Below are positions 24,368 to 29,314 of a stretch of 64,000 nucleotides of DNA, piece after piece; the stretch's first letter is position 1; every line of letters starts with the position of its first letter. The position numbers were made by a program, and so were the translations under genes. This stretch comes from Synechococcus sp. PCC 7502. Its GTDB lineage: Bacteria > Cyanobacteriota > Cyanobacteriia > Pseudanabaenales > Pseudanabaenaceae. Below the pieces are notes generated by a model. It worked only from the letters and a program-made list of their open reading frames with translations, had not been told where the DNA came from and did no database searches. The stretch lies in assembly GCF_000317085.1 (NCBI RefSeq), contig NC_019702.1, positions 402,394 through 466,393 on the forward strand, read 5' to 3'.

Positions 24368-24932
24368 AGTAAAAATAAAGATCACAGACTAATCAATTTA
24401 CTATTTCTTGAGACTAAATGGTTATATAAATCACACTAATTAGCGGAACTAGAACAACTGACTATCGGGATTTTTATAAATCATTTTTGGGTTTTGGATC
24501 ATAAAGCTACTTTGCTATGGCTTTGCTAGGCGGCAGATTGACATTTTTGGCTAAACCAACAACTTGTAATAGCCAGATCGACCACCAAGTAATATCAACT
24601 TCCCACCACCGCCAACCACATTTCGCCACTTGGGGATAAGCATGATGGTTATTGTGCCATCCCTCTCCGTAGGTAAGTAGGGCTGCCCACCAGAGATTAC
24701 GGGAATTATCATTACTGGCAAAGGATTTGTATCCCCACATGTGGGTAACTGAGTTGATCAGCCAAGTGGTATGCCAAAGGAGTACGACTCGCACAAATAC
24801 TCCATAGATAATAAACGACCATCCACCCATGAGGTAAAGTAAGCCAGCTAAGGGAATTTGCAAAGCTAAAAAGTAACGATTGAGCCAACGGTAATAGGGA
24901 TCACGATCTAGGTCTGGGGCAGAACGTTTATA

Positions 24933-25822
24933 GAGCCTGTTTCATATCTATTATGAGCAAGATTTATGATGCTTAGAAAATGCTAAATCCATACTCAAGT
25001 AGCCTAACAGATAAAGAATGGGAAATTATAGAACCATTGCTCCCAAAGAAAAAGCAAACTAGACCGCCAACTTGGACAAAAAGACAAATTTTAGACGGCA
25101 TACTCTACCAACTCAAAAACGGTTGTAATTGGCGAGATATGCCCCGAGACTTACCACCATTCTCTACAGTGTATCGATACTACAAGGAGTGGAAAGATAC
25201 AGGTACATTTACTGCGATTATGGAAGCTTTGCATTCAACAGCCCGTGAACAGTCAAAAAAAATCAAAATGGACAACTTTAATCATCATTGACTCACAAGC
25301 AGTGAAAAATACCTGTAATGCAAGTATAGAATCCAAGGGCTTCTGCTCCTACAAAGCAACTAACGGGATCAAAAGACATTTAGCCGTTGACACTCTGGGT
25401 ATTTAACAAGAGCAAATGTATCAGATGACCAAGGACTGATTGAGATGTTAACGTTTAACATTGATTACTTCAAATCGAAGCCAGATGACATTACCCTAAC
25501 TACGATATTGCTGGATAGTGGTTATCATATCGAAAAATTGACGACTGATTTACAGAAGGTTTATCCTGAGATTATGACTAAGATTAGGTTTGAAATTTCT
25601 CCTAAGGTATCAAAGCAACAGAAGGCAGAAAAAGGTCTGTCTGGGTTTGTAGTTGTGCCGACAAGGTGGGTAATTGAAAGGTCAAATGCTTGGGTTGAAA
25701 GATGCAAAATCTTAGTTAAGAACTTTGAGAGAACTCTCGTTAATGCTACAGCTAAACTCAATCTTTGCTTTATTCGTTTGATGCTAAAAAGAATTGCTAC
25801 TCATGAGATATGAAACAGGCTC
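24933..25822 (+). mobile_element. IS5-family insertion sequence, copy B
   Basis: An 890-bp element interrupting the desaturase gene. The termini are perfect inverted repeats (GAGCCTGTTTCATATCT and its complement) flanked by TATA at 24929-24932 and 25823-25826. It is almost identical to copy A in the opposite orientation, but lacks 17 bases around 25401 (after CTCTGGG), which destroys the transposase frame. Only a few substitutions separate the two copies, so transposition was recent. Confidence 0.95.
24980..25813 (+). pseudogene. IS5-family transposase, copy B (17-bp deletion)
   Basis: The N-terminal frame (24980-25291) equals copy A except for one Ala to Ser change. The second frame carries IIIDSQAVK and is reached at the same A8 run, but it ends in TAA just after CTGGGT because 17 bases present in copy A are missing. 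The third frame (to 25813) carries LLDSGYH and RWVIERSNAWVERCK. The product cannot be made whole by a single slip, so this copy probably moved with transposase supplied in trans or lost the bases after insertion. Confidence 0.88.
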
Positions 25823-26260
25823 TATATTGATCGTATTTAAAGAACTCATCGTGGGGGTAAAAAATCCACATCATGTGACTCCACCAAAAGCCTTTACTTG
25901 CCGCATAGGGGTCTTTAACCGCATCTTCAGTAAAGGCATGATGGGAACGATGTCCCGACACCCAAAAAATGGGACCGCCTTGCAATGAAAGTGCGCCGAG
26001 GGTAGCAATTATATATTCCAACCACTGGGGTACTCGTAAACTGCGATGGCTAAGTAAGCGGTGATAGCCCAAACAGACACCAATGCTGCCAAATAGCCAA
26101 TGAAGACAGATCATTACGCCCAAGGCTGACCAAGAGAAAAACCAAGGTGCTAGTAATGCCAAGATATGAATGGCAGAGAAAAAGATGACGGCTGACCAAT
26201 CAAGAGATGGCGGTTTTTCAGGTTCAGTTCGGAATAGAAAGGATTTCATAGGTAATTAAA

Positions 26261-27331
26261 TTAATGAACTTGTCCACGTTGAGCTTCAGCATCTATAGGA
26301 TTGATTAAATACACCCTGAGAATTTGCCAGAAAATGCCAAGGAATATGGGTAACTTTTGCAGAGTTTTGATGATCTGGGGGCGATCGCTATGCTCAATAG
26401 CTAGAAGTTGGAAATTATAGTCAGAGCATTTTTCTAAGTGGAGGAAAAAGTCGGGATGACTGGTATCTAAAACCGCAGGAAAAGCACTAATGGCAGTATT
26501 GTTAGTATTAACTATGACTTCTTTGTTATAGGCACGGGCATCTAAACCAATGGAAGTATAAAAATCCGCACGCTCAAATACAGTCAGGGTATGGGTGGCA
26601 AATACAGTTAATAAGAAGAATCTTGACCATAGTTTCGCTTTCCAGTTGTTCCAGAGTTGGGGCTGAGATCGCAATAGTACTTTAAAGAAATCTCCATGAC
26701 GATTTTCATCTTGACACCAACTTTCAAAGTAGCGAAAGAGAGGGTAAAACTGATGCTCGGGATGCCTCTGCATGTGGTAATGCACTAAAATATATCGCCA
26801 GTAACCAATTTTTTCCGATAGGTAAACAGAATAGATGACCCATTCAGGTTTAAAGAAGGTATAGCTACGGTTTTTGGTCATATTCACTAAATCTAGGGAC
26901 AGATTAAAATCCTTCATAGATTTATTTAAAAACCCCGCATGACGAGCTTCATCCCTTGCCATCAGATTAAAAGCCTCTGCTAAAAGTGGACTACGATTGC
27001 CTAGCTGCCGTGATAGTTCTTTAAATAGTAAAAATCCTGAAAATTCCGAAGTGCAAGAGCGTTCTAGGAAATCAATAAAAGCAGCACGGGTTTTACTGTC
27101 AATATGTTCCCAAGATTTTTCAAACTCCTCGTCTCTTTTAAAGTGATGGCGATTGTAGTCGGTGCGAAGTTCTTGGACAACTGCTTCTAGTTCTACCTGT
27201 TGGGATGATATATCCATTTGAGCTACAGCATCATAGTCCGTAGTATAGAATCGTGGCGTTAATAGGGTTTCTTTAACTGGAACTTTAACCCCTGCACGGA
27301 GGAGTTCTGAGTCTGATTGAGTTGTTACCAT
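26261..27331 (-). CDS. acsF: Mg-protoporphyrin IX monomethyl ester oxidative cyclase, low-oxygen type
   Basis: A 356-residue di-iron ferritin-like protein forming the chlorophyll E ring. The metal ligands are in RDEARHAGF and CQDENRHGDF, with an upstream LERSCTSEFSGFLLFKEL helix. Its position beside ho2, hemN and a ChlR-like regulator identifies it as the second, low-oxygen isoform (ChlAII/AcsFII), by analogy with the Synechocystis and Synechococcus clusters. A constitutive paralogue is expected elsewhere. The desaturase follows after 11 bases. The 5' leader carries a short AATTCTAAAAA direct repeat and lacks a clear ribosome binding site. Confidence 0.93.
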   Translation of the reverse strand: MVTTQSDSELLRAGVKVPVKETLLTPRFYTTDYDAVAQMDISSQQVELEAVVQELRTDYNRHHFKRDEEFEKSWEHIDSKTRAAFIDFLERSCTSEFSGFLLFKELSRQLGNRSPLLAEAFNLMARDEARHAGFLNKSMKDFNLSLDLVNMTKNRSYTFFKPEWVIYSVYLSEKIGYWRYILVHYHMQRHPEHQFYPLFRYFESWCQDENRHGDFFKVLLRSQPQLWNNWKAKLWSRFFLLTVFATHTLTVFERADFYTSIGLDARAYNKEVIVNTNNTAISAFPAVLDTSHPDFFLHLEKCSDYNFQLLAIEHSDRPQIIKTLQKLPIFLGIFWQILRVYLINPIDAEAQRGQVH

Positions 27332-27396: not shown

Positions 27397-27512
27397 TTAG
27401 ATGCTTTTTTGAAAAAACCGAATCATTTTCTGATCTTCGCCTTTGATATGGTGAGTTAACCAATCGGTGAGAAATTGGATAATGTCAGTGGTAATTTCAG
27501 CTTGGCGATCGC
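27397..27512 (-). pseudogene. Probable 3' fragment of a bacteriohemerythrin gene
   Basis: A frame different from the hemN frame encodes about 38 residues ending at TAA (27399-27397), including FLTDWLTHHIKGEDQKM and a short tail. The pattern L-x-x-W-L-x-x-H-I-x-x-x-D resembles the last helix of bacteriohemerythrins, where the His and Asp ligand the di-iron site. The 5' part of such a gene is absent; the fragment begins at the HIP1 octamer (27505-27512) where the hemN similarity ends. Identification rests on a short motif. Confidence 0.5.
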
Positions 27513-27647
27513 TCCTCGAAAATCCCTCTGATCAAAATCTGTACTTAGTTCTGTGGCAGGTGGATAACTGGTATAGCGTGGCACGGGCTGATTATATTTA
27601 TGCAATAAATTAAGATCAAATTTAACTGCTTGGGATAAGGTACTCAT
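27456..27647 (-). pseudogene. hemN: hemN remnant (5' end only)
   Basis: This 63-codon frame starts like oxygen-independent coproporphyrinogen III oxidase: KFDLNLLHKYNQPVPRYTSYPPATELSTDFDQRDFRGAIA. Similarity then stops, before the radical-SAM CxxxCxxC motif, so it cannot be catalytic. The remaining 15 codons are out of frame with the hemerythrin-like sequence. A ribosome binding site (TAGGAATGG) still precedes the ATG. Loss of about 400 codons occurred precisely around GCGATCGC at 27505-27512. Confidence 0.85.
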
Positions 27648-27817: not shown

Positions 27818-28564
27818 TCATGCCACTACTTGCCCGTAGTGTTGTTTATGATGATGTTCCGTACTGCCTTGCCGCTCTTGCTTGGTAATTAGCTCAAATA
27901 CATGACTACCGATCGCTGCCCTTACATCTGCCTCTAGTTCATCCACTACATTACGGTTAAGAGTAAAAGCATAATTGGCTTCAGCAATAATTCTCTGGAT
28001 GGTCGCTTCATCCAAAGCTAGGGAATCCAATGCTTGGCGATAGGTTTCTTTAAATGCTCGTTTTGCTTCAATTGTCGGTAGTTGATCAAATTCGTATAAG
28101 GCAGTACCGCGATCGCTGGGTAAATCCAAAGCAGAACGAACGATTCCTTTTAATGCTTGTCCTCCTGATAAATCCCCCATATAGCGAGTGTAGGCATGGG
28201 CAATTAAACATACAGGATCTGTCTTAGAAATTTCACGGATGCGATCGACATAAACCTTGCCTGCCTTGAGGGGAGTAATTTCTGCCCGCCAGTTATCTCC
28301 ATAATAGAAGGTCAGATCCTGCTCTAAACTTTGCTGGCGATTTAGTTCGGGGAAATATAACTTGCCAACAATGGGATGCTGAATATGTAGCCGTAACTCT
28401 TCTTCGATCGCACTATAAACCAAATAAAGATTTGCCAGTAATTTACGAAATGGTTCCCGTTCTACAATCCCCTTGAGAAAGCACTTCATAAATGCAGTAT
28501 TTTCGGCAGCAGTGTGAGATTTTTCTGTACCTTCTCGCAGTTTAGTGGCTAAGTTACTATTCAT
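27818..28564 (-). CDS. ho2: Heme oxygenase (HO2-type, low oxygen)
   Basis: A 248-residue heme oxygenase opening heme to biliverdin IX-alpha for phycobilin synthesis. LREGTEKSHTAAENTAFMKCFLKG contains the proximal heme histidine; YTRYMGDLSGGQALK is the distal-helix glycine motif. The start is the ATG at 28564, which has AGAGGA 6 bases upstream; a longer frame back to 28642 would run across its own promoter and adds a non-family prefix. The company of acsFII, hemN and a MerR regulator marks it as the micro-oxic isoform HO2 rather than HO1. Confidence 0.93.
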   Translation of the reverse strand: MNSNLATKLREGTEKSHTAAENTAFMKCFLKGIVEREPFRKLLANLYLVYSAIEEELRLHIQHPIVGKLYFPELNRQQSLEQDLTFYYGDNWRAEITPLKAGKVYVDRIREISKTDPVCLIAHAYTRYMGDLSGGQALKGIVRSALDLPSDRGTALYEFDQLPTIEAKRAFKETYRQALDSLALDEATIQRIIAEANYAFTLNRNVVDELEADVRAAIGSHVFELITKQERQGSTEHHHKQHYGQVVA

Positions 28565-28637: not shown

Positions 28638-28669
28638 TTCATAATTGCTTGAGAGTATCAAGTTATCAA
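28638..28669 (-). promoter_or_regulatory. Candidate MerR/ChlR-controlled ho2 promoter
   Basis: On the minus strand TTGATA (28669-28664) and TATGAA (28643-28638) are 20 bases apart, and the spacer contains the dyad CTTGA-TACTC-TCAAG. An overlong spacer with a palindromic operator inside is the known architecture of MerR-activated promoters. It begins 34 bases after the chlR stop codon and leaves a leader of about 67 bases before ho2. Confidence 0.65.
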
Positions 28670-28702
28670 TGATTTCAGAAATTTTGCTAGGCTAAGAACC
28701 GT

Positions 28703-29104
28703 TTACTTATCTAACCAGCAATGTGAGCAATCCTCTTTTAAGCTAATAATGCCTTGATCGCATTGCTCAATTAAAGGAACAAGTTCATCATGAAGTGCCT
28801 GTAGCTGCGTAATTGTTTTCTGAATATGTTCGACTTTTGCTTTCAGGCGATCGCGAACGTTATAGCAACAATCCATGCCATCCCTTTGTTTTAGCGCAAG
28901 AATTTCCCCAATTTCTTCCAATGTTAATCCTAAGGACTTAGCACGAGCAATGAAAGTGAGTCTTTCCAAATCTTGATCGGCATAGAGTCGATACCCTGAT
29001 TCAGAACGATTTGGTGATGGAATCAACCCAATACGCTCATAGAAATAGAGAGTTTGGGGATTTACACCTAATTTGCGTGAGACTTCACTTACTTGCAGCA
29101 TCAT
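28703..29104 (-). CDS. chlR: MerR-family regulator, ChlR-like
   Basis: A 133-residue MerR regulator. The N-terminal winged helix (LQVSEVSRKLGVNPQTLYFYERIGLIPSPNRSESGYRLYADQDLERLTFI) and the dimer helix (EEIGEILALKQRD...KAKVEHIQKTITQLQALHDELVPLI) are clear. Cysteines at C85-C86 (DCCYN), in EQCDQ and in the terminal CSHC could bind an iron-sulfur cluster or metal, suiting oxygen sensing. By family knowledge ChlR activates acsFII-ho2-hemN at low oxygen, and this gene leads exactly that set on the same strand. It may start at either of two adjacent ATGs. Confidence 0.8.
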   Translation of the reverse strand: MMLQVSEVSRKLGVNPQTLYFYERIGLIPSPNRSESGYRLYADQDLERLTFIARAKSLGLTLEEIGEILALKQRDGMDCCYNVRDRLKAKVEHIQKTITQLQALHDELVPLIEQCDQGIISLKEDCSHCWLDK

Positions 29105-29139
29105 TTACCTAATGAATACCTATAAAACTTGATGGCGTT

Positions 29140-29171
29140 ATCATAAGCCCTATACTTAAGTATAATGTCAA
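29140..29171 (-). promoter_or_regulatory. Candidate autoregulated chlR promoter (MerR type)
   Basis: On the minus strand TTGACA (29171-29166) and TATGAT (29145-29140) flank a 20-base spacer that contains the perfect palindrome TATACTTAAGTATA. This matches the long-spacer, dyad-in-spacer layout of MerR-controlled promoters. It ends 36 bases before the chlR ATG. Confidence 0.7.
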
Positions 29172-29205: not shown

Positions 29206-29314
29206 GACTTACGCACTTAAATTTACAAAGTAGTGATTCAAAGGAGTTTGAGGTCTACGTCCTCAATTGGGAACCCCTTTCAACTCTGGTTTTTTCTCTT
29301 ATACTGCGTAAGTC
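29206..29314. repeat. MITE-like element 1
   Basis: A 109-bp non-coding element bounded by the perfect 10-bp inverted repeat GACTTACGCA / TGCGTAAGTC. Its interior contains GAGTTTGAGGTCTACGTCCTC, an imperfect internal hairpin, ACCCCTTTC and a T-rich GGTTTTTTCTC. It matches element 2 at 36313-36428 along its length. Terminal repeats of this type recur in cyanobacterial MITEs. It separates the chlR promoter from the MDR reductase gene. Confidence 0.8.

Follow-up and report, generated by a model that had tools for sequence, protein, structure and literature searches.

The merR–ho2 locus

The window analysed here, a stretch of 64,000 nucleotides of cyanobacterial DNA, carries on its minus strand a short run of genes headed by merR, which encodes a small transcriptional regulator. 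The gene is followed by ho2, a remnant of hemN, acsFII and a desF-like desaturase gene that has been split by an insertion sequence (Table 1). ho2 is 73–79% identical to the ho2 genes of relatives and ~53% identical to the genome's other heme oxygenase. Over 59 aligned residues, the hemN remnant is 71% identical to HemN of the relative G027, and a search of the genome found no other close HemN. acsFII is 82–83% identical to the AcsF of the ho2–hemN operon in G027 and G016. The two desaturase pieces match residues 25–160 (81%) and 159–295 (76%) of the intact desaturase of another relative, G028. As both hemN and the desaturase gene are broken, the regulon may be decaying in this genome.

Two further observations concern mobile DNA. 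In G031 (locus L208), the counterpart of the desaturase gene is likewise broken, its two parts lying on either side of a transposase-like ORF. In the present window, a short element whose inverted ends are GACTTACGCA/TGCGTAAGTC occupies positions 29206–29314, between the merR promoter and a divergent quinone oxidoreductase gene. The genome has 18 matches to it, and the more complete of these are 70–78% alike, as for a MITE-type repeat.

Table 1. Position, strand and supporting evidence of the features at the merR–ho2 locus.
Feature	Position in window	Strand	Evidence
Predicted MerR-type promoter of merR	29140..29171	-	Direct reading; motif conservation; only match in the genome at ≤3 mismatches
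Parts of the merR promoter	TTGACA 29171-29166; 20-bp spacer 29165-29146; TATGAT 29145-29140	-	Direct reading
Putative operator of merR	29150..29165	-	Column conservation; core shared with the Slr0701-bound SPR oligonucleotide (PMC6741143)
Operator half-sites	TTATAC 29165-29160; GTATAG 29155-29150 (consensus GTATAA); four variable bases between	-	
merR, MerR-family regulator, 133 aa (chlR of the initial annotation)	28703..29104	-	Pfam MerR_1 and MerR-DNA-bind above cut-off
Second promoter-like pattern, before ho2	28638..28669	-	Chance-level motif score; no counterpart in G018 and G028; pattern frequency
ho2, low-oxygen-type heme oxygenase	27818..28564	-	Pfam Heme_oxygenase, E 5e-79
hemN remnant, N-terminal codons only, between ho2 and acsFII	27480..27647	-	Similarity to HemN of G027
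acsFII (chlAII), Mg-protoporphyrin IX monomethyl ester oxidative cyclase	26261..27331	-	NCBIfam AcsF above cut-off, 497 bits
desF-like fatty acid desaturase, IS-split (pieces 25797-26249 and 24507-24863)	24507..26249	-	Match to G028 desaturase
Insertion sequence, inverted ends AGAGCCTGTTTCATATCT, transposase in two frames	about 24933..25823	+	Sequence and ends

The regulator protein

The MerR family is known from the mercury response. The merR product has the winged-helix domain and DNA-binding region of this family, and matches PF13411 (69 bits), PF09278 (63 bits) and PF00376 (61 bits), all above cut-off; its closest solved structures by sequence are MerR, CadR and CueR. It was rejected as a MerR, CueR, ZntR or CadR/PbrR equivalog, as it scores 94–98 bits against NCBIfam cut-offs of 143–168. 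It was also rejected as SoxR, with 46 bits against a cut-off of 117 and no C-X2-C-X-C-X5-C motif. The name chlR given to the gene in the initial annotation is not retained: published ChlR belongs to the MarR-type activators and carries a [4Fe-4S] cluster that is sensitive to oxygen (PMC4500134), and the true ChlR proteins recovered here fall in Pfam HxlR.

The cysteines of the merR product are Cys79, Cys80, Cys115, Cys126 and Cys129. Cys80, Cys115 and Cys126 form the classic triad of the family, and these cysteine columns are kept in 45/45 of the regulators compared. The clade of regulators found in merR–ho2 clusters adds Cys79 and Cys129, and the clade of merR–desaturase pairs adds other cysteines; such extra, clade-specific cysteines occur only in clades attached to low-oxygen genes. 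They fit a changed thiol sensor, and an unchanged metal response is also possible. In the regulator tree, the two low-oxygen clades are each well supported and are not joined, and a single clade for both groups was not rejected either (p-AU 0.39). A protein scan of the genome collection returned mostly alphaproteobacterial relatives and had no bearing on the operator.

The probable operator before merR

Upstream of merR, the minus strand reads TTGACA, a 20-base spacer TTATACTTAAGTATAGGGCT and TATGAT; upstream of ho2, it reads TTGATA, a 20-base spacer ACTTGATACTCTCAAGCAAT and TATGAA. Direct reading bears out both pairs of hexamers and both spacers as initially described. A generic promoter scan is blind to these sites, as it covers spacers of 16–18 bp only. 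The window has 5 patterns of this class (5/6 or more matches in the first hexamer, 4/6 or more in the second, a spacer of 19–20 bp and perfect inner arms of at least 5), whereas 15 Markov-1 simulations gave a mean of 2.9. Because ~3 such patterns per window arise by chance, the bare pattern is no evidence of an operator; dyads in 20-bp spacers are common, and counting them was rejected as evidence. A further dyad promoter pattern with a 20-bp spacer, TTGACT-TTTCCTCTACAGTAGAGGTA-TATAGA with 7-base arms, is found at position 1811 of the minus strand.

Comparison among relatives separates the site before merR from this background. The motif TTGACM-TTATAC-N4-GTATAA-GG, with a second hexamer of the form TA...T and a fixed 20-bp spacer, lies upstream of the regulator homologue in 35/45 cyanobacterial loci, a redundant set in which ~20 loci come from one genus, with the motif also present in loci of other families. 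In several of the remaining loci, the motif precedes the next gene instead. The site before merR scores 33, against a highest simulated score of 28 in 5000 simulations of its own intergenic region, and it is the genome's one match to the motif at ≤3 mismatches. Across 388 genomes of the class, more than 100 matches at ≤1 mismatch were found in 64 genomes, against 2 for a reversed control pattern. Furthermore, an oligonucleotide bound by Slr0701 contains CCCTATACTTAGGTATAAGG, the core of which equals the core of the merR operator (PMC6741143).

From this sequence evidence, the site before merR is very probably a real MerR operator: it combines a spacer within the 19–20 bp of MerR-type promoters with a conserved dyad between the hexamers. 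The 14-base core initially proposed, TATACTTAAGTATA, holds in part. TTATAC-N4-GTATAA is conserved and its central four bases vary, so the longer palindrome is partly accidental. A promoter with an operator inside its 20-bp spacer would also fit the self-control that had been suggested for the regulator gene.

Operators and gene order in relatives

merR heads the low-oxygen cluster in three genomes: this one, G018 and G028. The gene order is merR–ho2–hemN–desF–acsFII in G028 and merR–ho2–hemN–desF in G018, each with one operator, before merR. In the sister genus the cluster is split. All 19 of the 19 sister-genus genomes with a merR–desaturase pair and a close, unlinked ho2 carry the operator before ho2, although these genomes are closely related and the counts are not independent events. 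The sister-genus ho2 operator is typically TTGACATTATATATAGGTATAAGGTCTAGGAT, and in the promoters read its −35 hexamer starts 61–62 nt 5′ of the start codon. Two of these clusters, those of G027 and G016, were read further downstream, and in both hemN and acsFII come after ho2. No operator was found at the ho2 promoters of other families.

Since the split-cluster relatives have the operator before both merR–desaturase and ho2–hemN–acsFII, the low-oxygen genes appear to be its targets. By gene order and operator position, acsFII, ho2, hemN and desF would thus stand under one regulator, as in a ChlR-type low-oxygen regulon. The proposal that the regulator controls the low-oxygen genes downstream of it is strengthened by the recurrence of the same operator at unlinked ho2 promoters.

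Other genes were noted near these operators. A small ORF, bacteriohemerythrin-like by eye, lies between hemN and acsFII of the ho2 operon in two of the relatives (L211:7029-7514 and L212:4856-5317). Downstream of merR in L042, L056 and L070, the operator also precedes a small gene labelled by eye as thioredoxin-like; with such a gene under the operator beside MerR, the regulator family would therefore serve several target sets. Second copies of ho2 in L171 and L172 (genomes G023 and G033) lie near genes that resemble psbA and a quinone reductase by eye, and in L171 an ArsR-like regulator (also by eye) lies near the second ho2. These second-ho2 regions are perhaps a sulphide or low-oxygen island.

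Distribution of ChlR

In Synechococcus 7002, the targets of ChlR are acsFII, ho2, hemN and desF (PMC4500134). A search of this genome for ChlR with the MarR_2 profile gave only unrelated MarR proteins, and the real ChlR of G005 was then used as the query. A four-cysteine ChlR was found next to or near acsFII–ho2 in G005, which belongs to the same family as the present genome, and in G036 and G051; in G046, it is located elsewhere in the genome. It was not found in any of 22 genomes, comprising the 19 sister-genus genomes and the three with merR-headed clusters. In the operator-bearing genomes, the top HxlR-type matches reach 40–53% identity and lack the cysteine pairs, and some of these genomes gave zero HxlR matches at the threshold. 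As ChlR was not found in these genomes, it is most likely that the MerR protein has taken over the low-oxygen tetrapyrrole regulon.

The same regulator could instead be a sensor of mercury or soft metals like Slr0701, with ho2, hemN, acsFII and the desaturase drawn into a metal response, for example the repair of pigment synthesis. The best characterised homologue, Slr0701, is a mercury-responsive protein that binds an operator with the same core (PMC6741143), and the classic cysteine triad is present in the merR product. Set against this, the targets in relatives are the published low-oxygen set of ChlR (PMC4500134), with no metal pump or reductase among them. The additional cysteines are confined to clades attached to low-oxygen genes, and ChlR is missing where the MerR regulator is present. 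Such a metal-responsive role is judged unlikely.

The pattern before ho2

The initial annotation counted two MerR-type promoters, and its claim divides between them: the site before the regulator is conserved and scores above chance, and the site before ho2 does neither. At its own position, the ho2 pattern scores 15. The best score anywhere in the merR–ho2 gap is 21; simulated gaps averaged 19.7, and 1351/5000 of them scored at least as high. No counterpart lies between merR and ho2 in G018 or G028, which have the same merR–ho2 order, and the gap is 46 nt in G018 against 138 nt in this genome. The ho2 site thus shares the spacer length of MerR-type promoters, with an unconserved dyad and a score at chance. 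Conservation of the dyads in relatives with the same genes had been set as the refuting test for both sites; the dyad before merR passes it and the one before ho2 fails.

The ho2 dyad might instead serve a different factor, as its operator or promoter, and ho2 would then have an additional, independent start. Its intact 5-5-5 dyad lies in a promoter-like setting, and the gap before ho2 has room for a promoter. These points are outweighed by the lack of conservation in G018 and G028 and by the number of such patterns expected in any window by chance, which leave a second ho2 start quite improbable.

The initial annotation had also considered that a single MerR protein uses both dyads as operators, with the ho2 dyad read through a shared geometry or a looser half-site; the hexamers and 20-bp spacer before ho2 speak for this, but the chance-level score of a common pattern, its absence from both relatives of the same gene order (one with a gap of just 46 nt) and the standard half-sites of relatives' ho2 operators make it very improbable. 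A degenerate operator copy was likewise rejected, on the unmatched half-sites and the score. The second dyad matches no half-site, is unconserved and is no stronger than chance, so it is unsupported as a MerR site, and the puzzle of one protein reading two unlike dyads drops out. The second site is probably a chance pattern, or at least not an operator of the MerR regulator here, and the feature would comprise one MerR-type promoter rather than two.

It is hardly credible that the regulator controls only itself and stands before ho2 by an accident of regional insertions and losses: the region does hold an insertion sequence, the hemN remnant and a mobile-element relic, but in G018 and G028 these genes are likewise headed by a regulator of this kind, and the operator precedes unlinked ho2 operons in 19 genomes.

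Proposed mechanism and significance

The explanation favoured here, at a probability of roughly 0.8, is that a single MerR-type promoter lies at this locus and that a MerR regulator stands in the place of ChlR over the low-oxygen regulon, as judged from sequence comparison. It is proposed that a MerR regulator of the Slr0701 kind binds TTATAC-N4-GTATAA in its own promoter, inside an over-long spacer of 20 bp. By analogy with the MerR family, the bound dimer would distort the DNA on receiving its signal, so that the hexamers become aligned for RNA polymerase. Gene order suggests that transcription would then run from the merR promoter through merR, ho2, the hemN remnant, acsFII and the broken desaturase gene. 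As the merR promoter would read through into ho2, a separate ho2 promoter would be unneeded here. Through its cysteines, the regulator probably senses oxygen or redox state as its signal; this is the least certain step.

A more far-reaching proposal is that, in one cyanobacterial lineage, MerR replaced ChlR over the whole low-oxygen tetrapyrrole and desaturase regulon, and that added cysteines converted a sensor of the mercury type into one for oxygen or redox state. The conversion may have taken place twice, the two regulator clades having different extra cysteines. This extension is put forward tentatively, at somewhat less than even odds.

The open-access literature searched describes one regulator, ChlR, through which cyanobacteria adjust the synthesis of chlorophyll, heme and bilins to oxygen, and no description of MerR control of low-oxygen pigment genes was found in it. 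The present comparison points to a second, unrelated type of regulator over the same genes. If true, this would be a clear example of one regulator being exchanged for another while the regulon was kept. Exact operators are now available, and the question becomes how a MerR sensor of the metal type could signal that oxygen is low.

Comparison with known systems

SoxR is also a MerR-family protein with a spacer operator, and it senses redox through an iron–sulphur cluster; the regulator here lacks the SoxR cysteine motif and falls well below the SoxR cut-off. CueR, CadR, ZntR and MerR share with it the fold, the family, the cysteine triad near residues 80, 115 and 126, and promoters with 19–20-bp spacers and an inner operator, the mechanism of which has been reviewed (PMC1526738). 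Unlike these proteins, the regulator here lies below every equivalog cut-off and has other half-sites and targets.

Slr0701 of Synechocystis 6803 (PMC6741143) resembles the present regulator in family and in operator letters, the likeness resting on these two, with the core TATAC-N4-GTATA(A)GG in the published oligonucleotide; it also combines self-control with control of an unlinked gene. Its target is the mercury reductase gene merA and its signal is Hg(II), whereas the genes here are low-oxygen pigment and lipid genes and the regulator has extra cysteines at the sensor. The ChlR regulon (Sll1512 of Synechocystis 6803 and ChlR of Synechococcus 7002; PMC4500134) has the same genes, acsFII–ho2–hemN–desF, under one activator encoded in the cluster. 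In that system the activator is a winged-helix protein of MarR/HxlR type with a [4Fe-4S] cluster, whereas here a MerR-type regulator would act from an operator within the promoter spacer.
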